Shown here: piece after piece, positions 243 through 16,303 of the stretch
Layout: each line of letters starts with the position of its first letter
How positions within the stretch are numbered: position 1 is the stretch's first letter
Source: a virus
DNA length: 20,695 bases
Strand: one strand, 5' to 3'
IMG/VR virus record: IMGVR_UViG_3300023301_000143
Coordinates: 1-20,695 of that record
The notes under the pieces: model-generated
Database searches by the model: none
The model's input: only the letters and a program-made list of their open reading frames with translations
What the model was told of the DNA's origin: nothing
Made by a program: the position numbers and the translations under genes

Positions 243-256
243 ATATGTTATTTAAT
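236..256. repeat. 21-bp leader repeat, copy 2 of 2
   Basis: Exact second copy of 107-127, spanning the ATG at 242 and its upstream A/T-rich leader. Confidence 0.75.
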
Positions 257-457
257 TATTTTTTTGTCTTGGATTGAATTTAATTTATGTACCAATCCGT
301 GAACACAATTTTTTACATAAACTAGTTTGTACTGTGTAAGGTCTGTATTGTAATCTTGTCTTTTTAATATTTCATAAACCCTAATTCCTGCTCTAAAATC
401 TTCTACAAATGCTACATGTTTATAAGGACTCCATTTTCTTTTGGTAAATATATTCAT
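248..457 (-). CDS. Hypothetical protein, 69 aa
   Basis: Leftward ORF starting at 457 (MNIFTKRKWSPYKHVAFVED). Basic overall, with no signal peptide, membrane segment or cysteine cluster (one Cys). It ends 5 nt before the start of the 39-aa zinc-ribbon gene and lies 18 nt after the preceding gene. I recognise no family. The compact operon spacing and lack of an overlapping competitor support it as real. Confidence 0.6.
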   Translation of the reverse strand: MNIFTKRKWSPYKHVAFVEDFRAGIRVYEILKRQDYNTDLTQYKLVYVKNCVHGLVHKLNSIQDKKIIK

Positions 458-475
458 TTTTTAAGTAGTAAGTTA

Positions 476-898
476 CTAGCTGTTTATTTTAATTAGTTCT
501 CCAATAAATGTTTTTGTTTCTTCTGATTGGTCGTTAAAGTTGTCTTTGGTTAAGTTCCAATCCATACATATTTGTCCAGTATTTTTAAGACACCAACAAG
601 TCCAGTTTTCTGTGCTATTATTTTCTTCACATCTATTTTTTAGGTCTAATGCCAATAACACCACTGATAGTGTTATAGGGTGTCCGAGGATTGTCTTTAT
701 GTTGTAGCTTCTTCCATCTTCATTTTGCCCATATAAACTAATCTCTCCAGTTTCTGGTGTGTAAGTTTCGACACATTGAACATTGCCATAACCTTGTATT
801 CCAAAGTCTGCATTTACAAATACAGCCATTCCTTTTCCTAAAGCCATAACACTCGGCACTAATTCCTTTATTCTTTTGATTGTTGTTTCGTGGTTCAT
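476..898 (-). CDS. Conserved phage protein with GHPITL motif, 140 aa
   Basis: Leftward gene starting at 898. The N-terminus has IKRIKELVPSVMALGKG and the middle has ILGHPITLSVVLLAL. That pairing ('lvPs-m-l--G' followed by 'iLGrPITL-DVL-A') is a pattern I recall in many phage proteins of unknown function. Residues 90-115 contain several Cys and Trp (NRCEE, WTCWC, ICMDW), less usual for the family. No membrane segment. It follows the 48-aa membrane peptide by 2 nt and belongs to the leftward early operon. Family membership is from recall; the function is unknown. Confidence 0.7.
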   Translation of the reverse strand: MNHETTIKRIKELVPSVMALGKGMAVFVNADFGIQGYGNVQCVETYTPETGEISLYGQNEDGRSYNIKTILGHPITLSVVLLALDLKNRCEENNSTENWTCWCLKNTGQICMDWNLTKDNFNDQSEETKTFIGELIKINS

Positions 899-900
899 AT

Positions 901-1047
901 TTATTTAATTAAGTAAACAAGAAAGTGAGCTAGGAAGTACCCAAAAGCAAATCCTAAGAATATGTATGTGAATGCTACTGCTCGTTTGTCGTTTCGTCTT
1001 TGTTTTAAATATCCTTTTATTTCTGATTCTCTGTTAAAGTTTTTCAT
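901..1047 (-). CDS. 48-aa membrane peptide
   Basis: Leftward ORF starting at 1047 (MKNFNRESEIKGYLKQRRND). A basic N-terminal half is followed by one hydrophobic helix at residues 26-46 (AFTYIFLGFAFGYFLAHFLVY) and a short IK tail. It is predicted to be a single-pass inner-membrane protein with N-in by the positive-inside rule. It ends 2 nt before the 140-aa gene start. Its first 10 codons and leader are duplicated at 1285-1323, where a broken copy remains. Confidence 0.65.
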   Translation of the reverse strand: MKNFNRESEIKGYLKQRRNDKRAVAFTYIFLGFAFGYFLAHFLVYLIK

Positions 1048-1057
1048 GTTTGTTTAT

Positions 1058-1273
1058 TTAATTAATTTCTACCTTATCTTCAATATAGCCAATAATTTTA
1101 CCAAAAGATAAAACCTCACTATTAACAGCAATTGCAGTTGCTTCTAGCTTTTGACCACTTTGTGCCAACTTTGCATTTTCTAAAGTTTGAAAAACCAAAC
1201 TAATTGTGTTACTTTCTTCACTTACTAAATAAACTGTTGATTTATTAAGCTTTGCTTCGTATATTTTTTTCAT
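1058..1273 (-). CDS. Hypothetical protein, 71 aa
   Basis: Leftward ORF starting at 1273 (MKKIYEAKLNKSTVYLVSEE), with a leader of TTAAAAAATAT before the ATG and no Shine-Dalgarno. The protein is soluble, beta-rich in appearance, and lacks cysteines. It may be a small single-domain protein, but I recognise no family. It lies 10 nt before the membrane-peptide gene and follows the broken duplicate of that gene's start. Confidence 0.6.
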   Translation of the reverse strand: MKKIYEAKLNKSTVYLVSEESNTISLVFQTLENAKLAQSGQKLEATAIAVNSEVLSFGKIIGYIEDKVEIN

Positions 1274-1284
1274 ATATTTTTTAA

Positions 1285-1323
1285 TTAGTTTTTAATTTCT
1301 GATTCTCTGTTAAAGTTTTTCAT
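1285..1323 (-). pseudogene. Truncated duplicate of the 48-aa membrane-peptide gene start
   Basis: Reads MKNFNRESEIKN then stop. The first 11 residues equal those of the gene starting at 1047, and the DNA matches over about 28 bases (1020-1047 vs 1296-1323). The membrane helix is absent. It looks like a leftover of a tandem duplication or recombination at the gene start. It could instead be a genuine 12-residue peptide, but nothing favours that. Confidence 0.6.
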
Positions 1324-1329
1324 ATTTAT

Positions 1330-1521
1330 TTATTTTAATGGTAATTCTATTCCCTCCCTTTTAAAGTTTCTTCTTATGTTATTCCAAACATTCCTCTCAT
1401 CACCTTTGCTGAACGATATGGTTGTCATTCCCCCGTTCTTGAGTTTACAAACATAATGGCTATTTGATTGTCTGATTTCAGTACAAAACTCTTCTAGCTT
1501 TTTAAGTACCTTTCTTTTCAT
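1330..1521 (-). CDS. Small HicA-like / dsRBD-fold phage protein
   Basis: Leftward 63-aa ORF from 1521. Residues 18-50 read SNSHYVCKLKNGGMTTISFS and then RNVWNNIRRNFKREGI. The order 'S-x-H-y ... GG .. t-i-s ... N---diRR--r--GI' resembles a phage family related to HicA-type mRNA interferases, in which the His in the SHY motif would be the candidate active residue. HicA proteins are usually 60-80 aa, so the length fits. No HicB-like antitoxin follows: the upstream neighbour (1518-1709) lacks the HicB pattern. Its start overlaps that neighbour's stop by 4 bp (ATGA), implying translational coupling. The RNase assignment is tentative. Confidence 0.5.
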   Translation of the reverse strand: MKRKVLKKLEEFCTEIRQSNSHYVCKLKNGGMTTISFSKGDERNVWNNIRRNFKREGIELPLK

Positions 1522-1709
1522 ATATTCATATGTATTCTAGGATACTTTTGTCTATTTGTTTGTGATGTTGTGTATCCTTTCTCTAATAAAACTTTTTCAA
1601 TGCTCTCTATCACTTCTTCTATCTCCATGACAAATCTCTCTTCGCCTATATGCACTTCACACTTAACTCCTCCCCCTGCATACCCATTATAAAATGTCAG
1701 TTTTGTCAT
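1518..1709 (-). CDS. Hypothetical protein, 63 aa
   Basis: Leftward ORF from 1709 (MTKLTFYNGYAGGGVKCEVH). A short beta-rich N-terminus with an AGGG turn is followed by a helical, acidic EEVIESIEKVLLEKG segment. No recognised family. It overlaps the HicA-like gene by 4 bp, so the two are probably made together. A pairing with the downstream protein is possible, but no antitoxin DNA-binding motif is visible. Confidence 0.55.
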   Translation of the reverse strand: MTKLTFYNGYAGGGVKCEVHIGEERFVMEIEEVIESIEKVLLEKGYTTSQTNRQKYPRIHMNI

Positions 1710-1720
1710 ACATTTTTTAT

Positions 1721-1996
1721 TTATTTAATTAATTCTCCTTGCATTTCTTTGTAAGCCCAAAACTTTCCATTGATATACATGTCTGTTAGGCACTCTTTGT
1801 GATATTCTTTTACTTTTTCATTAACAACCTCCCTCACTCTTTTCATCTCATCTGCTCGAATATCCTCTTCAAATTTTCTTAGTTTATCAACATTTATAGC
1901 ATTGATTGTCCTACCTCTTTCTCCAATCGTGAAGAAAGAAAACTCTTTAACGATTCTTGCTCCTAGTTTTGTAAGTGGTATTTTTTGATGTAGCAT
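1721..1996 (-). CDS. Hypothetical helical protein, 91 aa
   Basis: Leftward ORF from 1996 (MLHQKIPLTKLGARIVKEFS). The first 45 residues are basic with a GERGR turn; residues 45-80 form a charged helix (KLRKFEEDIRADEMKRVREV) that could be a short coiled coil. No membrane segment. It begins 6 nt after the preceding gene, consistent with coupled expression from the promoter at 2291-2318. Family unknown. Confidence 0.6.
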   Translation of the reverse strand: MLHQKIPLTKLGARIVKEFSFFTIGERGRTINAINVDKLRKFEEDIRADEMKRVREVVNEKVKEYHKECLTDMYINGKFWAYKEMQGELIK

Positions 1997-2002
1997 AAAT
2001 AT

Positions 2003-2263
2003 TTATATCGAAAATGTGTCAGTGATTAAATCGTAATACTGGTCAAAAATATCCCTTTCGTAAATTGTGTAATTCTCTTCGTCAGAAAATACTTTTCCTT
2101 TTGTCGCTAACTCTTTTAACATTAATTTATGTGCAAGTTCGCACACTTCATTCATGTAAATCATGTAGTTTCCTGTTTCCAATTTGATAAACTCATGTAA
2201 TTCTCCTGTGCCTGCTAGCTTTTCAATCTCCTTTCGTAGTAGTGTTGTTCCTTTTTTTTCCAT
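2003..2263 (-). CDS. Hypothetical protein, 86 aa, first gene behind early promoter P2
   Basis: Leftward ORF from 2263 (MEKKGTTLLRKEIEKLAGTG). Mostly helical and acidic at the C-terminus (DIFDQYYDLITDTFSI). The predicted transcript start of the promoter at 2291-2318 lies about 20 nt before the ATG, so it is the first gene of the second early leftward unit. The leader is A/U only and lacks a Shine-Dalgarno. Family not recognised. Confidence 0.6.
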   Translation of the reverse strand: MEKKGTTLLRKEIEKLAGTGELHEFIKLETGNYMIYMNEVCELAHKLMLKELATKGKVFSDEENYTIYERDIFDQYYDLITDTFSI

Positions 2264-2290
2264 ACATTTTTTATTTATTTAATAAGTATA

Positions 2291-2318
2291 AGTATATCAG
2301 CGGTGTCGGTGCTGTCAA
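2291..2318 (-). promoter_or_regulatory. Early leftward promoter P2 (sigma70, extended -10)
   Basis: On the minus strand TTGACA (2318-2313), a 16-nt spacer and TATACT (2296-2291), with TGA immediately before the -10 (extended -10). The architecture and much of the sequence match the promoter at 5915-5942 (shared CGACAC in the spacer, TGATATACTTATA at the end). The -35 overlaps the last codons of the 25-aa membrane-peptide gene. Confidence 0.8.
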
Positions 2319-2396
2319 TCAAAAGTTTCGATGATATAGTATCGTCGCTCCGATTAAGATTGCTATAACTATATAGAATATGATGTTGTCAATCAT
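2319..2396 (-). CDS. 25-aa membrane peptide
   Basis: Leftward ORF starting at 2396: MIDNIIFYIVIAILIGATIL plus YHRNF. Almost the whole peptide is one hydrophobic helix with a basic C-terminus, as in tiny phage membrane peptides. Its ATG shares a base with the upstream gene's stop (TAATG), so translation is probably coupled. The stop lies just inside the -35 region of the promoter at 2291-2318. Confidence 0.55.
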   Translation of the reverse strand: MIDNIIFYIVIAILIGATILYHRNF

Positions 2397-2569
2397 TAGT
2401 CGGCAATGTTTAACTCTGCGTCTTTAGTAATATCTCCGTCAATCCTAACGACATACTTTGCTCCTCTTATAACTCCCTCTCTTCCACTCTTCCCGTTATG
2501 CTCCCAATCAATATATGTATCTGTTAAATACTCTGCTCCTCCGCTTGTTTTGTGATGATAAAGTTTCAT
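2396..2569 (-). CDS. Conserved small phage protein (KLYxHKTxGGAEYLTD family)
   Basis: Leftward 57-aa ORF from 2569. It reads MKLYHHKTSGGAEYLTDTYI, then HNGKSGREG and RYVV-type RIDGDITKDAEL. This is a pattern I recall from many gut and environmental phages; no function is known. It is charged and soluble, with no cysteines. It overlaps the next gene by one base (TAATG). Family identity is from recall, but the conserved segments are distinctive. Confidence 0.65.
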   Translation of the reverse strand: MKLYHHKTSGGAEYLTDTYIDWEHNGKSGREGVIRGAKYVVRIDGDITKDAELNIAD

Positions 2570-2581
2570 ATTATTTTTAAG

Positions 2582-2716
2582 TTAGATTCTATCCATGTAA
2601 AATTTATAAAGTGTATCTGCGTACTCGCTCTCTCCGATATAGCTATACGATTCTAAAAATTCTTTTTTTGTAAGTATTAAGAAGTCCTGCATTTTTTCCT
2701 TGTCGTTTATAAACAT
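2582..2716 (-). CDS. Hypothetical protein, 44 aa
   Basis: Leftward ORF from 2716 (MFINDKEKMQDFLILTKKEF) ending YADTLYKFYMDRI. Highly charged and helical, no cysteines. It has the SD-less AAATAAAAAATGTATG start context shared by its neighbours and lies 12 nt before the next gene. It is the last gene with a tandem-hairpin cassette (2741-2793) in its leader. Family unknown. Confidence 0.55.
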   Translation of the reverse strand: MFINDKEKMQDFLILTKKEFLESYSYIGESEYADTLYKFYMDRI

Positions 2717-2740
2717 ACATTTTTTATTTTAATTATTAAA

Positions 2741-2793
2741 CTGTTTTTTCAAACAGTATAGAAAGCATAAAACTTTTATGCTCTCTAACTGGT
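2741..2793 (-). repeat. Tandem-hairpin leader cassette, copy 1
   Basis: On the minus-strand RNA: hairpin 1 GAGAGCAUAA-(AAGUU)-UUAUGCUUUC, then hairpin 2 CUGUUU-GAAA-AAACAG capped by a GNRA tetraloop. It lacks the CTTTATAA flank seen in the other copies. It lies between the stop of the 181-aa gene and the start of the 44-aa gene. Confidence 0.85.
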
Positions 2794-2798
2794 TAAAC

Positions 2799-3344
2799 CT
2801 ACCAACTAGAATGATAAGAATAATCATCACCCTCTTCTTCTAATATTTTTGTAAGCACTTCCACTGTTTCTTCTAAATCTTGTATATAATATTCATCGTA
2901 TTCAGTACCTCCGAAAAAGAAACCGCTCGCTGTTGGTAACAGTTTTACAATTTCTTCTATGTTCAGAATTTTACGAAAGTCAATCTCTCTTGTTTCAAAT
3001 CCATTTTCTCCCATGTGTTCAACTTCTTTCTTGACTGTTACAAAATCCATTTTCTCTAAAATGCTTTTACATGTATCCCTCAATTCAGTTAGCTGTTTAT
3101 GATTGACATCATAATCACCGCAGTCATCTTCTCCGTCTTGTACATTTTGCACAAACCAATTGTGTATCTGATTCGCTTTTCTCCAATAAGCAACCTCCTC
3201 AACTATGTATTTGATTCGCTCTACTTTAATTTTTTCTACTTTTTCACCTCCTTTTAAAATTGTAATATCATGTAACGATTCTTTCGTCATGTGTTCCCAA
3301 TTTTTTACATAACTTTTTTTACTCAAGTACATATCTAATCCCAT
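2799..3344 (-). CDS. Conserved phage protein, MGLDMYL family
   Basis: Leftward 181-aa gene from 3344. It begins MGLDMYLSKKSYVKNWEH, then has AYWRKANQIHNWFVQNVQDG, DDCGDYDV, SGFFFGGTEYDEYYIQD, and ends YSYHSSW. Every one of these blocks is a hallmark of a widespread phage/plasmid hypothetical family that starts MGLDMYL and ends in -SSW (recalled). The conserved WRKANxIHxWFV block suggests a folded enzyme-like core, but no activity is known. The length is typical. A tandem-hairpin cassette precedes it (3362-3421) and another follows its stop. Confidence 0.85.
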   Translation of the reverse strand: MGLDMYLSKKSYVKNWEHMTKESLHDITILKGGEKVEKIKVERIKYIVEEVAYWRKANQIHNWFVQNVQDGEDDCGDYDVNHKQLTELRDTCKSILEKMDFVTVKKEVEHMGENGFETREIDFRKILNIEEIVKLLPTASGFFFGGTEYDEYYIQDLEETVEVLTKILEEEGDDYSYHSSW

Positions 3345-3361
3345 ACATTTTTTATTTTAAT

Positions 3362-3421
3362 TATAAAGCTGTTATTTCTAACAGTATAGAAAGCATAAAA
3401 CTTTTATGCTCTCTAACTGGT
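3362..3421 (-). repeat. Tandem-hairpin leader cassette, copy 2
   Basis: Minus-strand RNA: hairpin 1 as in copy 1; hairpin 2 is CUGUUA-GAAA-UAACAG, so a stem base pair differs from copies 1 and 3 (U-A to A-U) while pairing and the GAAA loop are kept. The cassette begins at the stop codon of the 61-aa gene and ends 17 nt before the ATG at 3344. Confidence 0.85.
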
Positions 3422-3606
3422 TAAAATTTAATCGTCTTCATCTTCCAAAATTCAATAGCTTCCTTAAACTTTGCACGCTCGTAATTTATATCTGCATTCA
3501 GTGAAAATATATCTCCGACTGTGTTTATAAAATTATCTTCTGCTCCTCCTATCTTCACAAACTGAAAATATTCAGTTCCGTTGATTGTAATTGTTTCTAA
3601 TTTCAT
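3421..3606 (-). CDS. Hypothetical protein, 61 aa
   Basis: Leftward ORF; I place the start at 3606 (MKLETITINGTEYFQFVKIG) because it has the A-rich AGGAAAAACAAA context. The longer in-frame reading would begin inside the hairpin at 3621-3655. It ends FKEAIEFWKMKTIKF. It appears beta-rich then helical, with no cysteines in the chosen form. Family not recognised. The leader is unusual: a tandem-hairpin cassette plus a third, longer hairpin. Confidence 0.6.
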   Translation of the reverse strand: MKLETITINGTEYFQFVKIGGAEDNFINTVGDIFSLNADINYERAKFKEAIEFWKMKTIKF

Positions 3607-3620
3607 TTTGTTTTTCCTAA

Positions 3621-3655
3621 CTTGTCCGCACCGCTTTATAAAAAATGCGGACAAG
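3621..3655 (-). promoter_or_regulatory. 10-bp leader hairpin before the 61-aa gene
   Basis: CTTGTCCGCA (3621-3630) and TGCGGACAAG (3646-3655) are perfectly complementary, with a 15-nt A/T-rich loop. It sits between cassette copy 3 and the ATG at 3606. There is no U-run after it on either strand, so it is not a classic terminator; a leader or mRNA-processing role is more likely. Confidence 0.6.
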
Positions 3656-3661
3656 ACAAGA

Positions 3662-3729
3662 TATAAAGCTGTTAAACTGTTTTTTCAAACAGTATAGAAA
3701 GCATAATCTAGTTATGCTCTCTAACTGGT
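3662..3729 (-). repeat. Tandem-hairpin leader cassette, copy 3
   Basis: Minus-strand RNA: hairpin 1 with loop CUAGA, hairpin 2 CUGUUU-GAAA-AAACAG. It carries an extra 9 bases between hairpin 2 and the CTTTATA flank, looking like a partial duplication of the CAG arm. It lies between the stop of the 193-aa gene and the hairpin at 3621-3655. Confidence 0.85.
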
Positions 3730-3733
3730 TAAA

Positions 3734-4315
3734 TTATTTTAAGTATTTTGTTAAGTCTTCATTCTTCCATTCTTCCGGCAGGTATCCGCGTATGTCTTCA
3801 ATGTCATAAAATCCGCAACAACTGTCTTCAACTCCTCCGTCTTCGTCGTATAGTGTAAATCGGTACACTTCACCATTTGCATATTGATTGTATGTATCAA
3901 TCTCGCTTTTTATAACCGCTTCAAAATCTTTTTCTTCTGTTCCTAATTCTTTCCTGCTCTCTTCTGTTACTATATAAAATCCATTGTTAGAATAATCAAA
4001 GCCGTGCCGTTGTCCTAAGCTGTAAGACACTCCGCCATGCTCATATTTTACAACTGGATATATTGCTAAAACTTTTTCCTGTACTTGGTCTTCTACTTCT
4101 TTTTTGATAATCTCCATGTGATTGTCGCAACTCGTTGCTTCTTGTCCTGATTCTCTCACTATGTTTATCAATGTATCGTGGTCATCTGGACTTCTATATT
4201 TATTATCAACTGTGATGAAGTAACCTAAATTGCTCCACTCTCGTGGGCTGTCGATTCCCTCATCGTATTCAATCACTAATTTATTTACTTCTATTTGTTT
4301 CTTAATTGTTTTCAT
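3734..4315 (-). CDS. Conserved phage protein with PREWxNLG ... DSCxGFY pattern, 193 aa
   Basis: Leftward gene from 4315. Residues 20-35 read GIDSPREWSNLGYFITV; the middle has YPVVKYEHGGVSYSLG and NNGFYIVTEESRKELG; the C-terminus has YNQYANGEVYRFTLYDEDGG and EDSCCGFYDIEDI. This ordered set matches a family I know as frequent in phages and plasmids (PREW-NLG, Y-hGG, GfIYV, YdQYl-GdVY-f, DSC-GFyg), always of unknown function. It is soluble and very acidic. Flanked on both sides by tandem-hairpin cassettes. Confidence 0.8.
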   Translation of the reverse strand: MKTIKKQIEVNKLVIEYDEGIDSPREWSNLGYFITVDNKYRSPDDHDTLINIVRESGQEATSCDNHMEIIKKEVEDQVQEKVLAIYPVVKYEHGGVSYSLGQRHGFDYSNNGFYIVTEESRKELGTEEKDFEAVIKSEIDTYNQYANGEVYRFTLYDEDGGVEDSCCGFYDIEDIRGYLPEEWKNEDLTKYLK

Positions 4316-4330
4316 ACATTTGTATTATTT

Positions 4331-4389
4331 TATAAAGCTGATTGTCAATCAGTATTGAAAGCATAATCTAGTTATGCTCTCTAACTGGT
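4331..4389 (-). repeat. Tandem-hairpin leader cassette, copy 4
   Basis: Minus-strand RNA: hairpin 1 GAGAGCAUAA-(CUAGA)-UUAUGCUUUC (10 bp including one G-U), hairpin 2 CUGAUU-GAC-AAUCAG. Flanks are ACCAGUUA at the 5' side and CUUUAUAA at the 3' side. Identical to copies 5 and 7 over 59 bases. Confidence 0.9.
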
Positions 4390-4394
4390 TATAA

Positions 4395-4781
4395 CTAGTA
4401 ACTAGAAACTTTTTTTGTCAATTTGTATTCTTCTTCGTGGTCTTTTACTTCTAAATTTTCCACTAGCTCTGCGATAAATTTAAGTATCTCTCCTTTATTT
4501 GCATAGTATTCTTTTTGGTCGCCTTTGCTAAAATAGGGGTCTTCTAGGTATCGGCTAGGGTTTTTAACATCCATACTATTTTGTAAATCTCTTACAAAAT
4601 CGGCAACATTTTGATACTCGTATTTGAATCCATTAATATCATAATGTGCAATAAATCCGCTCGCTATATTTATAAATTGATATGCTTCCATTGATAAATT
4701 ATCAATGTTTTTTGTTTTTACTACTTTTTCAATGCTCTTGATTATTCCACTCTTGTTTGTCTTCCATTTTTTTACTTCCAT
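4395..4781 (-). CDS. Hypothetical phage protein, 128 aa
   Basis: Leftward gene from 4781 (MEVKKWKTNKSGIIKSIEKV). It has NIDNLSMEAYQFI, GFIAHYDINGFKYEY and NPSRYLEDPYFSKGDQKEYY. The 'NLSm-qynFi--~GGFIAHYni-GF' and 'NP-RY---~F--G-Q--YY' blocks resemble phage proteins I have seen without function. Mostly helical, acidic C-terminus, no membrane segment. It sits between cassette copies 4 and 5. Confidence 0.65.
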   Translation of the reverse strand: MEVKKWKTNKSGIIKSIEKVVKTKNIDNLSMEAYQFINIASGFIAHYDINGFKYEYQNVADFVRDLQNSMDVKNPSRYLEDPYFSKGDQKEYYANKGEILKFIAELVENLEVKDHEEEYKLTKKVSSY

Positions 4782-4797
4782 ACATTTGTAATTATTT

Positions 4798-4856
4798 TAT
4801 AAAGCTGATTGTCAATCAGTATTGAAAGCATAATCTAGTTATGCTCTCTAACTGGT
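4798..4856 (-). repeat. Tandem-hairpin leader cassette, copy 5
   Basis: Same 59-base sequence and fold as copy 4. It sits between the stop of the 96-aa gene and the ATG at 4781. Confidence 0.9.
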
Positions 4857-4861
4857 TATAG

Positions 4862-5152
4862 CTAGCAGTCGCAGTCACGAATGTCATCCTCGCACAACTC
4901 GCAAATTTCTATCTCATAAGCTACGCTCTCTTCTACTTCTTGGTAGTGTCCAAAATCGTGATTATTCCACTTTGACAGTCTAAAATCCTTGTCTTGATAC
5001 TTATCTTTTAAAATTGCAAGCACTTTTTTGTTTTGTGTTTCCATTTTTTCGAGATAGTCTAAGTTTTTTGAAACTGAAACTATTTCACCAACGTTGCAAT
5101 CTTCGAACATTTTGTCATCTATTGACTGCCACTCGTGTATTGTTTTAAACAT
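4862..5152 (-). CDS. Hypothetical protein with Cys-rich C-terminus, 96 aa
   Basis: Leftward gene from 5152 (MFKTIHEWQSIDDKMFEDCN). It contains KWNNHDFGHYQEVEESV, an 'NNHDFG-Y--v' block common in small phage proteins. It ends ICELCEDDIRDCDC: four cysteines in the last 13 residues could bind a metal. Acidic, soluble. No recognised function. Cassette copies 5 and 6 flank it. Confidence 0.65.
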   Translation of the reverse strand: MFKTIHEWQSIDDKMFEDCNVGEIVSVSKNLDYLEKMETQNKKVLAILKDKYQDKDFRLSKWNNHDFGHYQEVEESVAYEIEICELCEDDIRDCDC

Positions 5153-5167
5153 ACATTTGTATTATTT

Positions 5168-5226
5168 TATAAAGCTGATTGTCAATCAGTATTGAAAGCA
5201 TAATCGAGTTATGCTTTCTAACTGGT
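5168..5226 (-). repeat. Tandem-hairpin leader cassette, copy 6
   Basis: Differs from copy 4 at two positions: the loop base (CUCGA instead of CUAGA) and the G of the G-U pair, which is an A here. Hairpin 1 therefore becomes a perfect GAAAGCAUAA / UUAUGCUUUC stem. It starts at the stop of the 52-aa gene and lies 15 nt before the ATG at 5152. Confidence 0.9.
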
Positions 5227-5384
5227 CACTTAATTTCTGTAACTGTAATCCCTAAACCTCTCATAAAATCTACTGCTTTAACTTCTTTTGTAAATTGCAC
5301 TTCTTTGAAAAATCTCATTTCCATAATTGGGACTTGTGTAACTATTTCACCTGTACGAGTGTCTTGATATTGTTTTGATTGCAT
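5226..5384 (-). CDS. Hypothetical protein, 52 aa
   Basis: Leftward ORF from 5384 (MQSKQYQDTRTGEIVTQVPI) continuing MEMRFFKEVQFTKEVKAVDF. The opening 'YqDtrTGEiVtqvpi' suggests a small beta hairpin at the N-terminus. Stop 5226-5228 is immediately followed by cassette copy 6. It starts 2 nt after the end of the 50-aa gene, with no cassette at this junction. Family not recognised. Confidence 0.6.
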   Translation of the reverse strand: MQSKQYQDTRTGEIVTQVPIMEMRFFKEVQFTKEVKAVDFMRGLGITVTEIK

Positions 5385-5386
5385 AT

Positions 5387-5539
5387 TTATTTATTATTAC
5401 TCATCCATTCTGCTAAAATTGCTCTTGCTTCTTTTTTATCAATACCAAATTCTGCCACTAGATAAGGACTTGCACCGAACATGTTGCATTCTCCTGATTC
5501 TCTTAGGTCATTTAAATATTGGTTATGGTCTTCTTCCAT
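5387..5539 (-). CDS. Conserved small phage protein (YLNxLRESGxxNMFGAxPYL)
   Basis: Leftward 50-aa gene from 5539. It reads YLNDLRESGECNMFGASPYL, then AEFGIDKKEARAILAEWM. This is a very widespread small phage family ('YL--LReSG-tNMFGA-pYL--eFgl-~-eAr-iL--WM', recalled). No function is established; its helix-turn pattern could suit a small DNA- or protein-binding fold. Cassette copy 7 forms its leader. Confidence 0.8.
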   Translation of the reverse strand: MEEDHNQYLNDLRESGECNMFGASPYLVAEFGIDKKEARAILAEWMSNNK

Positions 5540-5555
5540 ACATTTGTAATTATTT

Positions 5556-5614
5556 TATAAAGCTGATTGTCAATCAGTATTGAAAGCATAATCTAGTTAT
5601 GCTCTCTAACTGGT
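5556..5614 (-). repeat. Tandem-hairpin leader cassette, copy 7
   Basis: Same 59 bases as copies 4 and 5. Its 5' end begins at the stop codon (TGA, then CCAGTTAG) of the 35-aa membrane-peptide gene and it ends 16 nt before the ATG at 5539. Confidence 0.9.
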
Positions 5615-5721
5615 CACGAGATGATTATTATAAATAAGATGATTAAGATGATATGCAGTCTTCTGATTCTTGCATTCTTATTCTTCTCTTTAAGCCACTC
5701 GCTTTGTGTTGGTTGATACAT
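5614..5721 (-). CDS. 35-aa membrane peptide
   Basis: Leftward ORF from 5721: MYQPTQSEWLKEKNKNARIR, then RLHII and an Ile/Leu-only helix ending IIS. A basic N-terminal half plus one C-terminal hydrophobic helix predicts a tail-anchored inner-membrane peptide. It starts 1 nt after the end of the zinc-finger gene. Small membrane peptides are common in phage early operons; the function is unknown. Confidence 0.55.
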   Translation of the reverse strand: MYQPTQSEWLKEKNKNARIRRLHIILIILFIIIIS

Positions 5722-5722
5722 A

Positions 5723-5878
5723 TTATTTATTGTAAGGACTGCTAAAGTGGTCTTGAAGTGCTTCTTGTACACCGCAGTCATTGCATATGTATAGTGAGCT
5801 ATCTCTTCTGGACATACTATTCATCGCCTTGTTTTCATCCAATAAGTTTGAACAACTTGTTTGTGGGCATTGTGTCAT
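5723..5878 (-). CDS. 51-aa zinc-ribbon-like phage protein, first early gene
   Basis: Leftward ORF from 5878 (MTQCPQTSCSNLLDENKAMN), then MSRRDSSLYICNDCGVQEAL. C4-x4-C9 and C36-x2-C39 can form one zinc site. The 'lSR-d---yiC-dCG-qEAL' block is a recurrent small phage family without assigned function (recalled). It is the first gene behind the early promoter at 5915-5942, with an SD-less leader of about 30 nt. Confidence 0.7.
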   Translation of the reverse strand: MTQCPQTSCSNLLDENKAMNSMSRRDSSLYICNDCGVQEALQDHFSSPYNK

Positions 5879-5914
5879 TGTATTTTATTTAATTATAAAG
5901 CTTGGTCATTTATA

Positions 5915-5942
5915 AGTATATCAAAAGTGTCGACATTGTCAA
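5915..5942 (-). promoter_or_regulatory. Early leftward promoter P1 (sigma70, extended -10)
   Basis: Minus strand TTGACA (5942-5937), 16-nt spacer, TATACT (5920-5915) preceded by TGA. The -35 is consensus, the -10 is 5/6. Predicted start is near 5908. The resulting leader begins UGACCA-AGCUUUAUAAUU, i.e. the two flanks of the tandem-hairpin cassette without its hairpins. Confidence 0.8.
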
Positions 5943-5951
5943 CTGGTCTTG

Positions 5952-5970
5952 TGTGGATAAGTGGGGATAA
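5952..5970 (+). other. Two tandem DnaA-box-like sites
   Basis: TGTGGATAA (5952-5960) is the exact reverse complement of the DnaA consensus TTATCCACA. TGGGGATAA (5962-5970) differs at one base, with one base between them. A third near match, TTATCCACT, is at 6358-6366. They flank the repeat-rich non-coding region, which suggests a replication origin. Confidence 0.5.
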
Positions 5971-5991
5971 GTCGGCTGGGCTTAGGTGCTT

Positions 5992-6028
5992 GGGTGGGGG
6001 TGGATATGCAGGCGGTAGGGGTTGGGGG
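5992..6028 (+). other. G-rich tract with quadruplex potential
   Basis: Contains G3, G5, G4 and G5 runs (5992-5994, 5996-6000, 6018-6021, 6024-6028) in an otherwise AT-rich genome. A four-run quadruplex with one long loop is possible. It lies just upstream of the leftward early promoter. Confidence 0.4.
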
Positions 6029-6036
6029 TGTGTTGT

Positions 6037-6072
6037 GTCGCACAATATATCCGCCATTACGTCGCACAATAT
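6037..6072. repeat. 12-bp direct repeat, period 24
   Basis: GTCGCACAATAT occurs at 6037-6048 and 6061-6072. The spacing of 24 bp puts both on roughly the same helix face, consistent with paired protein-binding sites. Confidence 0.6.
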
Positions 6073-6180
6073 TTTCGGTCATAAGCTATGCGTAGCATAG
6101 TCAATAGGTTTTGTTGTGTTGTGTTTATAGTGATTCAATTATAGTGGTTGTGTTTAAAATGTTTGTACTGATATAGGTTG

Positions 6181-6194
6181 AGGGGGTAACCCCT
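6181..6194 (+). other. GNRA-capped hairpin
   Basis: AGGGG-GTAA-CCCCT is a 5-bp GC-rich stem with a GUAA tetraloop if transcribed rightward. No U-run follows, so it is not an obvious terminator. Confidence 0.45.
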
Positions 6195-6247
6195 TCCAAT
6201 GGGTACGGTATGTATATATAGAAAAAAGAAGTATCACCCACATGGCG

Positions 6248-6306
6248 TGTGTAAAAAACCCCTGTGTAAAAAACCCCTGTGTAAAAAACCCCTGTGTAAA
6301 AAAAAC
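6248..6306. repeat. 15-bp tandem repeat, three perfect copies plus a partial
   Basis: Unit TGTGTAAAAAACCCC at 6248-6262, 6263-6277 and 6278-6292, then a degenerate fourth unit. Unit length excludes CRISPR. Iteron-like binding sites for a replication or regulatory protein are the best guess. Confidence 0.8.
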
Positions 6307-6382
6307 TTTGTAAAAACCTGTAGAAAAAAGTCCCTATATTTATTTTTTTTTATATTTTTATCCACTGATTCCCACATAGACA

Positions 6383-6567
6383 AACCAACATATCAAATAT
6401 ATCCCTATTTTTTATATGTTGGTTCATTATAAGGCTATAACAAAGGCTAAAACATATACAACCAACATATAAACGTAACTATCTCTAAAAAGAAAGTAAT
6501 GGATTGAATAATCCATTTTACATATACTAATAAGGTTTATGCCTAAAATGGCTTTTATATGTTGGTT
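6383..6567. repeat. Four AACCAACATAT motifs in alternating orientation
   Basis: AACCAACATAT at 6383-6393 (+), 6414-6424 (-), 6460-6470 (+) and 6557-6567 (-). The first pair forms a perfect 11-bp inverted repeat with a 20-bp spacer; the second pair is wider. This arrangement suggests an operator or origin-binding protein acting as a dimer. Confidence 0.75.
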
Positions 6568-6630
6568 CTATATTCATAGCCCTATAAAGTGTGTTGCCTC
6601 TATTTGGTTTGGCTAAGAATAAGGCTTTGA

Positions 6631-6666
6631 AACCTACCTACTAAAAAAAAGATTAGTAGGTGGGTT
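6631..6666. other. 14-bp hairpin next to the rightward promoter
   Basis: AACCTACCTACTAA (6631-6644) pairs with TTAGTAGGTGGGTT (6653-6666) with one wobble around an A-rich 8-nt loop. It ends 7 bp before the -35 of the promoter at 6674-6701, so it could be an operator or a stop for transcription entering from the left. Confidence 0.6.
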
Positions 6667-6673
6667 GTCTTAA

Positions 6674-6701
6674 TTGACATAGAACCTACCTGTGATAAAC
6701 T
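6674..6701 (+). promoter_or_regulatory. Rightward promoter, predicted leaderless start
   Basis: TTGACA (6674-6679), 16-nt spacer, TAAACT (6696-6701), with TGA before the -10 as in the two leftward promoters. The ATG at 6709 begins 8 bases after the end of the -10, where transcription should start, so the mRNA is predicted to have no leader. Confidence 0.75.
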
Positions 6702-6708
6702 TACATAC

Positions 6709-6978
6709 ATGACTAAAACAGATAAAGACACAAAAAAATGTATGCACGAAGCTCACGGGTTTTATTGTGTAAATAGTTCCTTCGGAGGAGCGAGAGGATT
6801 ATGTATGACCCACTATGTAGGTTACCGATATCACGTGCGAAAGAAACATAAAACTTGGGAAGAGTTAGAGCAAGCTGGAAAGTGTGCGAAGAAAATGACT
6901 CAATTAGAAAAAAATTTGATTCAATCGCATACGCACAAGAGTTATAAAAAGAAAAGCCCAGGTGCTTATGATTTTTGA
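6709..6978 (+). CDS. Small Cys/His zinc-finger protein, 89 aa
   Basis: Rightward gene. Residues 11-40 hold KCMHEAHGFYC and ARGLCMTHYVGYRYH. The 'C-x7-C ... rGLC--HY--~r' arrangement is a frequent small phage zinc-binding module, sometimes seen with HNH or transcription-regulator-like proteins (recalled). A TWEELEQAGKC segment follows and may add a ligand. The C-terminus is basic. First gene of a two-gene operon with a predicted leaderless start; probably nucleic-acid binding, role unknown. Confidence 0.65.
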   Translation: MTKTDKDTKKCMHEAHGFYCVNSSFGGARGLCMTHYVGYRYHVRKKHKTWEELEQAGKCAKKMTQLEKNLIQSHTHKSYKKKSPGAYDF

Positions 6979-8638: not shown

Positions 8639-8803
8639 TTAGTTCCTGTAATTAGAAATATCTACTTCTTGTGTATCACAATTGCTTACTGATTCTTTGC
8701 ATTTTGCTACTTTTATACTTACCAAAACAACTGAAGAAAGAATACCGATGATTGCAATCACAACCAGCAACTCAATCAATGTAAAACCTTTGTTATTTTT
8801 CAT
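8639..8803 (-). CDS. Type IV prepilin-like protein, 54 aa
   Basis: Leftward ORF from 8803. It begins MKNN-KGFTLIELLVVIAIIGIL, the class III signal of type IV pilins and pseudopilins: cleavage after Gly6, N-methylated Phe7, Glu at mature position 5, then a hydrophobic helix to about residue 32. Only 22 residues follow, with Cys35 and Cys42 that could form a disulfide. Normal pilins carry about 100 more residues, so the globular head is missing. It starts 4 nt after the SPFH gene stop, so it is co-transcribed. The N-terminus resembles CPR pseudopilins. It could be processed by the host prepilin peptidase and block or join pili. Confidence 0.85.
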   Translation of the reverse strand: MKNNKGFTLIELLVVIAIIGILSSVVLVSIKVAKCKESVSNCDTQEVDISNYRN

Positions 8804-8807
8804 ATTA

Positions 8808-9620
8808 CTATAAGTTTATAAAAGGAACTGTTGCGTTTGGAATCATTTGTACTGGTAGCACTCCATTCCATTTCTCAACGGCTTTTAAATTGACATACTC
8901 TTTACCTCCTTGATTTTGAATAGCTTGAGCTTGTATTCTAATTGTTTCTGCCTCTGCTTTTGCTCTTTCAACTTGTTGTTCTGCTTCAAATTTAATTCTG
9001 TCTAAATCTCTTTCGGCTGTGAAGGCTCTTTGTTCTGCTGTTACTTTGGCTTCGATAGCTTCGTTAAAAGACTTTGAAAATTGTAAGTCTGTAACATTGA
9101 CTGCTTCAACAATCACAAATTTACCTGTAAATCTTTTTTGTAGTTCTGTTTGGATTGCATCTGTAAATTCAGAACGCTTTGTTACCAATTCTTCGGCAGT
9201 ATATTTCGCTGATGAAGTTTTAACAGCATCACGAACAGCAGGTCTGATTACATTTTCTTCAAACACTCTTTGACTTCCAAATTGTCCATAAATATCACCT
9301 ACGGCATTCGCTTCCAATCTGTAATTTACAACAGATGAAATAACTACATCTTGCAAATCTTTAGATGCAGAAGTAAGTGGATTTTCTTTTTCGTAAATAA
9401 CATTATTTGTTTGAACATTAAACTTTTTTATTTTATCAATAAAAGGGAATTTAAATGCCAGTCCAGAGTCCTTAACTCCAACAACTTTTCCTAATCTTAT
9501 ATACACACCCATTTCTCCTTCGTCAACAACCCTAACTGTTGAAAATACAACAATGATAATTAACAAAAGAATTGCACCTATACCTATTAACTTCCCTGCT
9601 ACATTATTTTTTTCTTCCAT
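8808..9620 (-). CDS. SPFH/prohibitin-like membrane protein, 270 aa
   Basis: I start this gene at 9620 (MEEKNNVAGK); an in-frame GTG at 9647 is less likely. Residues 10-35 form one membrane helix (LIGIGAILLLIIIVV). Then comes the SPFH domain: VVDEGEMGVYIRLGKV, LAFKFPFID, KDLQDVVISSVVNYRLE, and ENVIRPAVRDAVK. A long helical segment rich in Ala/Glu (TAEQRAFTAERDLDRIKFEA, VERAKAEAETIRIQAQA) follows, as in prohibitin/HflC oligomer rings. These proteins scaffold membrane microdomains and regulate proteases such as FtsH. It heads an operon with the pilin-like and acidic peptides. Confidence 0.9.
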   Translation of the reverse strand: MEEKNNVAGKLIGIGAILLLIIIVVFSTVRVVDEGEMGVYIRLGKVVGVKDSGLAFKFPFIDKIKKFNVQTNNVIYEKENPLTSASKDLQDVVISSVVNYRLEANAVGDIYGQFGSQRVFEENVIRPAVRDAVKTSSAKYTAEELVTKRSEFTDAIQTELQKRFTGKFVIVEAVNVTDLQFSKSFNEAIEAKVTAEQRAFTAERDLDRIKFEAEQQVERAKAEAETIRIQAQAIQNQGGKEYVNLKAVEKWNGVLPVQMIPNATVPFINL

Positions 9621-10989: not shown

Positions 10990-12723
10990 ATGCCAACAGC
11001 ACAAACTAATCACAATGACGAAATAGTAGAGTTGCTTACAAAAAATCCGGAGTTGATTAAAAATCAAGACTGGAGACTTAGTAATTTATATTGGATTATT
11101 ACAAAGGATGGGGATAAGTCGGTTTTTAAAATGAACCGAGCTCAGAAACATTTCTTTGATACATATTTAGATATCCCGCGACCATATCACAGACATTGTA
11201 TTCTTAAATCTCGTCAACTAGGTTTCACTACTTTTATTGATATTTATATATTGGATTCTATTTTATTCCAACCCAACAAAGAAGGAATTGTTATTGCTCA
11301 CAAAGTTGAAGATGCTACACAGATTTTCGATAAGAAAATTGAGTTTGCTATTCGTAACATGGCACCAGATATTAAAGATGCGTTCTTTCGAATCAACCAA
11401 AAGTCTTCGAGAAAAATTCAAATTGTTTTGGATTATGGTCCGGAGAAAGGTTCCACTTCATCCATTGCTGTTTCAACATCGGGTCGTTCTGGAACATATC
11501 ACTTGGTTCATATCTCAGAGTTTGCAAAGTTGTGTGCTCAATATCCGAAACGTGCGGAGGAGGTGGAGAGAGGAACATTTCCAACAGTCCCGTTCGATGG
11601 ATTTATTTTTATTGAATCAACTGCGGAGGGTATGGCTGGAAGATTCTACGAAATATTCCAAGAGAACTGGCTGACGCGTGACAAAATTACCCCGCAACTT
11701 TCACAGGTGCAGTTTCTTCCTCACTTCTATAACTGGCAATACGATGACATGGAGATGAAGAAAATTTACGAAAACGTACCGGTGAAAGATATGTTTATTT
11801 GCGAAATTGATTGGGGGTCTTACCAGATTGAACATAATTTAACTGATAAAGAAATCACATACTACTATATGAAGTGGTTGCAGTTTGGAGGAAAGAACTC
11901 CCCGGAGGCTATCAAATCTCTGATGCAGGAATACCCAACTACTCAAGAAGAAGCTTTCCTTTCTACAGGTCAGACTTATTTTTCTACCGCGAAAGTGGCG
12001 AAGCTTCTTGAAACAGCAACAAAAGGAGAAAGAGGTGAGCTTGGGAATAATGAAAAAGGAGAAGTTATTTTTAATCAAGTATCCTCGGGGTCTTTGGAGA
12101 TTTTTAAAATGCCGGAACCTGGGACCCGATATATTGTAGGAGGAGATACCTCTGAAGGACTCGCTCACGGAGATGCACAAGTTCTTTATGTGATTAATTG
12201 CAAGACTGAAGAGTGTGATGCTTTGTACAGGTCTCAAGTTGCACCTGATGAATTAGCAACAGAGGCATACAAGTGCGGGAAGTTCTACAACTGGGCTCTT
12301 CTTGGAATTGAGGTCAACAAAGATGGACTGTGGGTGAACGATGCTCTTGAAAAAATGGGATACATTAATTTGTATTACAGAAAACAGTTCGATGACATTA
12401 CTCAAAAAGTGACGAAGTTCTTCGGGTGGAAGACGACATCAGCAACAAGACCTTTTGCATTGGCAGCTTTGAAAGCTGTCGTGTTCCGAAAAGATAAAGG
12501 TTTTCCAGCTGCAATTCTAAATGAAATGTTTACTTTCATTCGAAACATAAAAGGAAAACCGGAAGCAATGGATAAAAAACATGACGATTGCATCATGGCA
12601 GCCTCTATTGGATACGCGATTCTTCAAGAACAAGGTCAATACGAAGGAGATACACCTGCGGAAGAGGGATTTTCTCATATGAAAGCGATGTTTGGAGAGC
12701 AAAGTGGACAAATAAATCACTAA
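10990..12723 (+). CDS. Terminase large subunit (TerL)
   Basis: 577 aa. N-terminal ATPase: RAQKHFFDTYLDIPRPYHRH precedes CILKSRQLGFTT (Walker A-like), then TYHLVHISEFAKL (Walker B with Glu) and FIFIESTAEGMAGRFYE (coupling motif). C-terminal RNase H-like nuclease: RYIVGGDTSEGLAHGD (first Asp), LLGIEVNKDG (Glu), and MDKKHDDCIMAASIGYA (last Asp). All key acidic residues are present, so it should be active. It translocates and cuts DNA at the portal during packaging. Length is typical. It follows TerS and precedes the portal, the normal order. Confidence 0.95.
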   Translation: MPTAQTNHNDEIVELLTKNPELIKNQDWRLSNLYWIITKDGDKSVFKMNRAQKHFFDTYLDIPRPYHRHCILKSRQLGFTTFIDIYILDSILFQPNKEGIVIAHKVEDATQIFDKKIEFAIRNMAPDIKDAFFRINQKSSRKIQIVLDYGPEKGSTSSIAVSTSGRSGTYHLVHISEFAKLCAQYPKRAEEVERGTFPTVPFDGFIFIESTAEGMAGRFYEIFQENWLTRDKITPQLSQVQFLPHFYNWQYDDMEMKKIYENVPVKDMFICEIDWGSYQIEHNLTDKEITYYYMKWLQFGGKNSPEAIKSLMQEYPTTQEEAFLSTGQTYFSTAKVAKLLETATKGERGELGNNEKGEVIFNQVSSGSLEIFKMPEPGTRYIVGGDTSEGLAHGDAQVLYVINCKTEECDALYRSQVAPDELATEAYKCGKFYNWALLGIEVNKDGLWVNDALEKMGYINLYYRKQFDDITQKVTKFFGWKTTSATRPFALAALKAVVFRKDKGFPAAILNEMFTFIRNIKGKPEAMDKKHDDCIMAASIGYAILQEQGQYEGDTPAEEGFSHMKAMFGEQSGQINH

Positions 12724-15731: not shown

Positions 15732-15772
15732 CCATCGTCACCACCCACGATACGGGTAGGATAAAAATATGG
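15726..15772 (+). repeat. 47-bp late leader repeat, copy 1
   Basis: Identical to 16257-16303 over 47 bases. It runs from just before the upstream stop to the ATGG of the next gene. GC content is higher than its surroundings. It holds ATCGT / ACGAT (5-bp stem) and CACC-CGGGT segments, then TAGGAT 6 bases before the ATG, where a leaderless -10 would lie. No -35 match is visible. Confidence 0.85.
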
Positions 15773-16256: not shown

Positions 16257-16303
16257 AATTAACCATCGTCACCACCCACGATACGGGTAGGATAAAAATA
16301 TGG
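16257..16303 (+). repeat. 47-bp late leader repeat, copy 2
   Basis: Exact second copy of 15726-15772, ending at the ATGG of the scaffold-like gene. In both copies TAGGAT is followed by AAAAAT and the ATG. Confidence 0.85.

Follow-up and report, generated by a model that had tools for sequence, protein, structure and literature searches.

The early genes of a phage represented by IMG/VR record IMGVR_UViG_3300023301_000143, which was analysed over its whole length (20,695 bases, linear, 35% GC; hereafter the window), are separated by seven copies of an intercistronic linker. This linker is an RNA structure on the mRNA strand, kept by compensatory change, and all of its copies lie within what looks like one leftward early operon. 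Judging from its sequence and position, it probably acts in cis as mRNA punctuation in a general sense, through processing, protection or insulation of the message, and we put the probability of this reading at roughly 55%. The original prediction had described the element as a leader RNA. A structured element on the mRNA strand is indeed present, but the term is too narrow, because the unit spans stop to start and related phages use unrelated sequences for apparently the same job.

A stop-to-start linker in seven copies

An independent repeat search returned the seven copies, at the positions originally predicted, as the top repeat family of the window and the sole ones in the record. All of them lie on the minus strand, which is the coding strand of the flanking genes (Table 1). 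On the mRNA strand the linker opens with UAA/UGA-CCAGUUAG, i.e. (U)UAA or UGA followed by CCAGUUA, and continues with hairpin 1 (GAGAGCAUAA-loop-UUAUGCUUUC; 12 bp in copies 1-3 and 10 bp in copies 4-7), a short (A/U)AUA spacer, hairpin 2 (CUG...CAG, 6-7 bp), and an AU-rich stretch of about 20-27 nt that leads to an AUG. The sequence directly before the ATG is AAATAA(T)TACAAATGT or AAAATAAAAAATGT, and no Shine-Dalgarno sequence is found at the genes following the window linkers. As had been reported, hairpin 2 reads CUGAUU-GAC-AAUCAG in copies 4-7, CUGUUU-GAAA-AAACAG in copies 1 and 3, and CUGUUA-GAAA-UAACAG in copy 2. The GNRA cap that was claimed along with it (GAAA) is thus limited to copies 1-3, the others carrying a GAC triloop, and neither loop is present in the relatives.

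That each copy sits right after a stop codon holds throughout, with a distance of 0-6 nt, and six of the seven also extend directly to the next AUG as proposed; the exception is copy 3, where an extra strong hairpin comes first. In 6/7 copies the triplet that precedes CCAG continues the reading frame of the upstream gene: copies 2, 6 and 7 use it as the stop codon, while in copies 1, 4 and 5 it is a second stop, two codons past a UAG. We considered whether UAG might be a sense codon, given the in-frame UAA that follows it in these three copies, and rejected this, since the short extension is better explained by the linker's own stop.

The copies are spaced 308-660 bp apart and differ little. 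Copies 4, 5 and 7 are identical across the core except for the first base, and copies 5 and 7 share an identical stretch of 82 nt that reaches into the open reading frame (ORF). The repeated units take in the flanking stop codon (copies 4 and 5) as well as the first ORF bases (copies 5 and 7). Gene duplication was dismissed as the origin of the seven copies, because the flanking early proteins are unrelated to each other.

Table 1. Linker copies and promoter-like sites in the window
Feature	Positions	Strand	Details
Copy 7	5540-5615	-	hairpin 1 5606-5582, hairpin 2 5577-5563; upstream stop TGA 5616-5614, next ATG 5539
Copy 6	5153-5227	-	hairpin 1 5218-5194 (A-U replaces G-U), hairpin 2 5189-5175; next ATG 5152
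Copy 5	4782-4857	-	hairpin 1 4848-4824, hairpin 2 4819-4805; next ATG 4781
Copy 4	4316-4390	-	hairpin 1 4381-4357, hairpin 2 4352-4338; next ATG 4315
Copy 3	3607-3730	-	hairpin 1 3721-3697, hairpin 2 3692-3677; then further strong hairpin (CUUGUCCGCA...UGCGGACAAG) before next ATG
Copy 2	3345-3422	-	hairpin 1 3413-3389, hairpin 2 3384-3369; next ATG 3344
Copy 1	2717-2794	-	hairpin 1 2785-2761, hairpin 2 2756-2741; then 44-codon ORF from ATG 2716
P1, putative early promoter	5915-5942	-	TTGACA-16-TATACT, TG upstream of -10; 11/12 matches, consensus match only
P2, near copy of P1	2291-2318	-	TTGACA-16-TATACT, past last linker; repeat search, assigned by eye

Pairing is conserved on the mRNA strand

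Folded on the minus strand, the copies lie well below shuffled sequence (z -2.8 to -6.4). The claim that only this strand gives good RNA did not survive, however: by raw energy the plus strand folds better in both copy 5 (-16.1 versus -14.9) and copy 6 (-19.1 versus -15.9). Since raw plus-strand folds of single copies are as good as those of the minus strand, the simple strand argument fails, and a strand preference is revealed only by the G-U pairs and by scores from many phages after correction against shuffles. Over 107 early gaps from 24 records (the window and 23 related contigs), the mean z was -1.77 on the mRNA strand versus -1.23 on its complement (Wilcoxon p 6e-5; 1.7e-4 with the window left out). 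On the mRNA strand the wobble pairs read G-U, where the complement would show A-C mismatches; the replacement of a G-U by an A-U pair in hairpin 1 of copy 6 is as originally described.

With copies 4, 5 and 7 nearly identical, covariation within the window alone rests on few distinct sequences, and as the window copies are too alike to prove much, the search was widened to other contigs. The collection searches used exact patterns, the ORFs of relatives were called mechanically, and the window record and most relatives may be fragments. A covariance model built from the seven copies, as the original prediction had proposed, gave a convincing match in contig L095 (E 6e-5), and a gapped pattern search placed the linker in four other contigs in all, one copy each, which a looser pattern confirmed. 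Two further pattern matches, in L186 and L187, were dropped, both having other surroundings and no hairpin 2, and an exact search of IMG/VR with an 18-nt core matched 8 contigs, all through one unrelated coding sequence. None of the 4227 Rfam models scored above its gathering threshold on the linker. A similarity search against sequenced phages gave short chance matches only, and the best terminase matches among these phages are about 33% identical.

The joint alignment holds 11 sequences (the 7 copies and 4 from outside), 10 of them distinct. In it 96% of cells are paired, and hairpin 1 is 100% paired in every sequence, so that stem changes that break pairing, which would have spoken against the prediction, are absent from hairpin 1 in the relatives. 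In five pairs both partners have changed, among them U-A/U-G/C-G at columns 17-31, A-U/U-A at 18-30 and U-A/U-G/C-G at 50-70. The predicted covariation of the stems is thereby borne out, with 12 double-changed cells against at most 2 in controls with the partners slid, a control that ignores relatedness, the four outside sequences falling into close groups that leave about three independent lineages. Conversely, ACCAGUUA and AUACUG, both unpaired-looking, are invariant in 11/11 sequences although the stems change.

Gene content changes at the linkers, and linkers differ between genomes

Two of the four contigs that carry the linker are phages with an unrelated terminase. In L210 and L213 the upstream genes and the linker are shared and the sequences part at the AUG; in L211 and L212 the linker and the gene after it are shared and the sequences part at the stop codon, L211 having two extra genes there. 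Gene content thus switches exactly at the linker's stop or start. Window proteins had no match in L211 or L212, whose terminase is a different one, and we therefore conclude that the linker is common to unrelated phages. L212 and L213 stem from one metagenome.

Among the terminase relatives, stop-to-start linkers of a different kind were found. L055, L054, L077, L023, L026 and the group L020/L096/L024 all carry hairpin linkers whose sequence is unrelated to that of the window, with early gaps at z<-2 in 6/8 cases for L020, 6/7 for L055, 3/3 for L054 and 4/4 for L096. In some relatives the duplex reaches 20 bp and more, and in some the linker is a single long hairpin. The linker of L020/L096/L024 has the form UAGACGCCG-hairpin-CCGCUUANACUUUAAU with a variable inner stem, and the end of the upstream gene, from its last codons to the stop, forms part of the outer stem, with the stop UAG usually lying in the 5' arm. 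Placing these CCGCUUANACUUUAAU linkers and the window linker in one sequence family was considered and dropped, as the layout alone is alike.

A direct comparison is offered by window gene 3734-4315, which is flanked by two of the present linkers. Its ortholog in L099 is flanked by two unrelated hairpin linkers, and the orthologous junctions in L018, L056, L100, L101 and L102 are without a structured linker. Because one gene has different linkers or none across relatives, the linkers are genome-specific, and neither gene-specific nor obligatory. Similarly, model R1 found no convincing match in 80 contigs sharing the protein encoded at 2799-3344, which means that the linker does not follow that gene.

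Some further sequences at such junctions were observed in the relatives. On the minus strand of the L055 locus (around 3581, 4673, 4949 and 5216-6941), hairpin linkers of two or three distinct families occur in a single phage, and in one of these families the apical loop AACACC can pair with a downstream GGUGU, a possible pseudoknot seen in two copies. A leader AUGGUGGUAnUCCAC(C) recurs before one early gene on the minus strand of L017 (around 4860-4790), L018, L026, L083 and L095.

A possible punctuation of the early message

What would such a linker do? A role for the DNA alone fails on compensatory change, G-U pairs and orientation, and the promoter and terminator roles fail as well, so that a role in the mRNA remains. 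In the mechanism that we favour, the linker opens with the stop codon of the upstream gene and folds into two hairpins between the cistrons of the leftward early message. Its double-stranded part may be cut, by host RNase III or a similar enzyme, or may block exonucleases, and the unstructured AU-rich end would serve as a landing site for a start codon without Shine-Dalgarno sequence. Each gene would thereby gain a protected 3' end of its own as well as a short, open 5' leader, and could be expressed independently of its neighbours, an independence that would in turn allow genes to be swapped at the linker junctions. Pairing of the start region is lower in early gaps with structure (about 0.3) than in other gaps (about 0.4). 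For endonucleolytic processing specifically, the sequence permits only a tentative proposal, which we hold to be less likely than not.

The closest proven parallel would be the RNase III sites of the T7 early region (R0.3, R0.5, R1, R1.1 and R1.3), at which cleavage has been proven. Like these, the window linkers are hairpins between successive early genes, after a stop and before a start, in one orientation and on what appears to be one polycistronic transcript, co-transcription being suggested by gene order and the single promoter-like site. The T7 sites differ, however, in having longer duplexes with internal loops and genes with a Shine-Dalgarno sequence, while here we find two shorter hairpins and no Shine-Dalgarno, and cleavage is a prediction.

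Several findings do weigh against punctuation. At 10-12 bp, hairpin 1 by itself falls short of a classical RNase III substrate, and a duplex of about 19 bp arises only with the hairpins of copies 1-3 stacked, or with the outer-stem fold, versus about 20 bp or more for a T7-type site. A phage-encoded RNase III was found in none of 19 records, and a host enzyme must therefore be assumed. Over all gaps, early ones did not fold significantly better than late ones (p 0.34), because some relatives have no structured early gaps. Finally, the linker is not essential in the group, since many relatives are without one.

Intergenic hairpins and start-linked repeats in phages are of a kind already known (PMC8948821, PMC3203893, PMC4351075), and what is new here is that the linker spans stop to start, has covarying stems, is replaced from genome to genome and occurs in phages unrelated to each other. 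Phage early regions hold many small genes of unknown function that come and go. In phages that lack Shine-Dalgarno sequences there, an RNA connector running from stop codon to start codon, with a structure that is kept while its sequence varies between phages, would account for the immediate expression of newly acquired genes with no need to suit their neighbours. The linker alignment also yields covariance models with which such linkers can be sought in other uncultured phages. In Cluster K mycobacteriophages, the SAS is a 13-bp linear motif, GGGATAGGAGCCC, at the start codon, and the ESAS a pair of imperfect 17-bp inverted repeats (PMC3203893). Like the window linkers, these are repeated upstream of the starts of some non-structural genes, nearly all in gene direction, and the consensus of the inverted repeats depends on the subcluster (PMC3203893). 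They have no sequence similarity to the window linker, however, which starts at the stop codon and has covarying stems, and GGGATAGGAGCCC is not present just before the ATG at the window linkers. The (X)CUUCGG(Y) hairpins of T4 and other phages are likewise stable and intergenic, one of them having been shown to stabilise an mRNA (PMC8948821), but are defined by a CUUCGG loop that is absent here.

Other explanations

Of the alternatives, control of translation survives best, although we consider it unlikely. The linker would then regulate or isolate initiation downstream, either by serving a phage or host protein as its RNA operator, or through a bistable switch in which the ribosome finishing the upstream gene sets the fold. 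Such a switch is suggested by the conserved ACUG, which has two possible partners: the CAGU at the 5' end, a pairing that buries the stop codon, and the CAG of hairpin 2. The two resulting folds differ little in energy in the window copies (P of the outer stem 0.25-0.91), and the invariance of ACCAGUUA and AUACUG in the face of changing stems, as well as the linker's ending at an AUG that it leaves open, would also fit. In the four relatives, however, the hairpin 2 fold dominates (P 0.95-1.00), and bistability is therefore not conserved. An operator is further opposed by the lack of a conserved loop for a protein to read, and by the early proteins of the window being unrelated to each other.

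Punctuation and translational control may also be combined in a ribosome-sensing connector, a speculative idea that we regard as rather improbable. With the stop codon in the 5' arm of the outer stem, and ACUG common to two exclusive folds, translation of the upstream gene would set either processing or access to the next start site, and connectors of this type would be the places where unrelated phages of one host community exchange genes, with every genome settling on a connector sequence of its own.

The exact switching of gene content at the linker ends, together with the 82-nt identity of copies 5 and 7, could also point to a DNA site, i.e. a palindromic operator or a cassette-joining site (integron-like or through short-homology joining) that accumulates at gene boundaries. 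There is precedent in the 17-bp dyads of Cluster O mycobacteriophages, which occur in many copies, many of them intergenic, and go together with gene loss and gain by recombination (PMC4351075). These are DNA palindromes that have invariant arms, lack a clear orientation and lie within coding regions in about one third of cases (PMC4351075), whereas the linker has one constant orientation relative to the genes, and its compensatory stem substitutions pass through intermediates that are G-U on the mRNA strand only. No tyrosine recombinase (integrase) was found in 19 records, which are fragments, and shuffling at boundaries is expected for any intergenic element too. We therefore think a DNA site very unlikely.

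A transcription element, such as an attenuator, a weak terminator or a put-like RNA antiterminator of two tandem stem-loops, is hardly probable. The put RNA of phage HK022, which lies near the early promoters and acts on RNA polymerase, consists of two stem-loops separated by one unpaired base, and the linker also has two, spaced 1-4 nt apart but repeated seven times. Processive antitermination does not need seven copies 308-660 bp apart, and some relatives have a single long hairpin instead. A terminator scan rated hairpin 1 of copies 1 and 3 terminator-like (two marginal matches, with scattered T counted). No U-run follows either hairpin, the tail being UACUGUUUGA or AAUACUGAUUGA, which agrees with the earlier judgement that these are not ordinary terminators. 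Least probable of all is a functionless selfish or neutral repeat spread within the genome by gene conversion, which would account for seven copies here (three of them core-identical) and one per relative, but not for pairing kept across distant phages, for the limitation to stop-start gaps of one operon, or for unrelated linkers occupying the same position in other phages.

Layout of the window and promoter-like sites

From about 250 to 5,880 the window carries small leftward genes on the minus strand, mostly of unknown function, while its right part holds rightward genes, including the terminase at 10990-12723 (PHROG terminase matches) and structural genes. P1, located ahead of the first gene, is the sole strong promoter-like site upstream of the seven-linker operon, and this, together with gene order, is why we read the region as one operon in which no linker has its own promoter. 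A sigma-70 promoter for each gene (TTGACA-16/18-TATAAT) was considered and rejected, as there is no match at any of the seven copies and a strong one only at 5942-5915. P2 precedes an operon that holds no linker.

Some minor features of the window were seen as well. A palindrome, TGTCGACA, lies between the hexamers of the promoter-like site 5942-5915 on the minus strand and is a possible operator, and the region between the divergent operons carries the 15-mer TGTGTAAAAAACCCC in tandem copies at 6248-6303 on the plus strand. The start context AAAA(A)AUGUAUG recurs at many genes (e.g. 2263, 3344 and 5539 on the minus strand, and also in L020, L023 and L096), and places an out-of-frame AUG 4 bases before the start codon. 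A small gene at 8639-8803 (minus strand) encodes a prepilin N-terminal methylation motif (PF07963) and adjoins a gene at 8808-9620 that matches phrog_200. As for the host, Patescibacteria are hinted at by the prepilin gene, with nothing to confirm it, and Dehalococcoidia by one genome contig, a 5.7-kb piece binned there, which is too weak for naming a host; both were set aside.

A pseudoknot leader in the late operon

A second structured leader is found on the plus strand at 15734-15760 and 16265-16291, upstream of the late-gene ATGs 15769 and 16300. It reads AUCGU-CACC-ACC-CACGAU-ACG-GGU-AGG-AUAAAAAUAUG, with AUCGU CACC NNN CACGAU ACG NNN NGG AUAAAA AUG as the consensus, and was present in 37/44 terminase relatives with enough sequence (window included), mostly twice and about 490-750 bases apart; Rfam held no match to it. 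In the relatives, the loop triplet and the post-stem triplet change together (ACC/GGU, AGC/GCU, AUC/GAU, GGC/GCC, UCC/GGA, GUC/GAC and UUU/AAA), from which we identify the leader, at the level of sequence, as an H-type pseudoknot. Its second stem pairs in 99% of cells, with 8 double-changed cells. Because the 3' strand covers the Shine-Dalgarno-like GG(A), the leader is a candidate for translational control of head-region genes. The T4-type gene 32 pseudoknot may be the sole viral example in translational autoregulation (PMC3014915, 2010), and the late leader merits a separate study.

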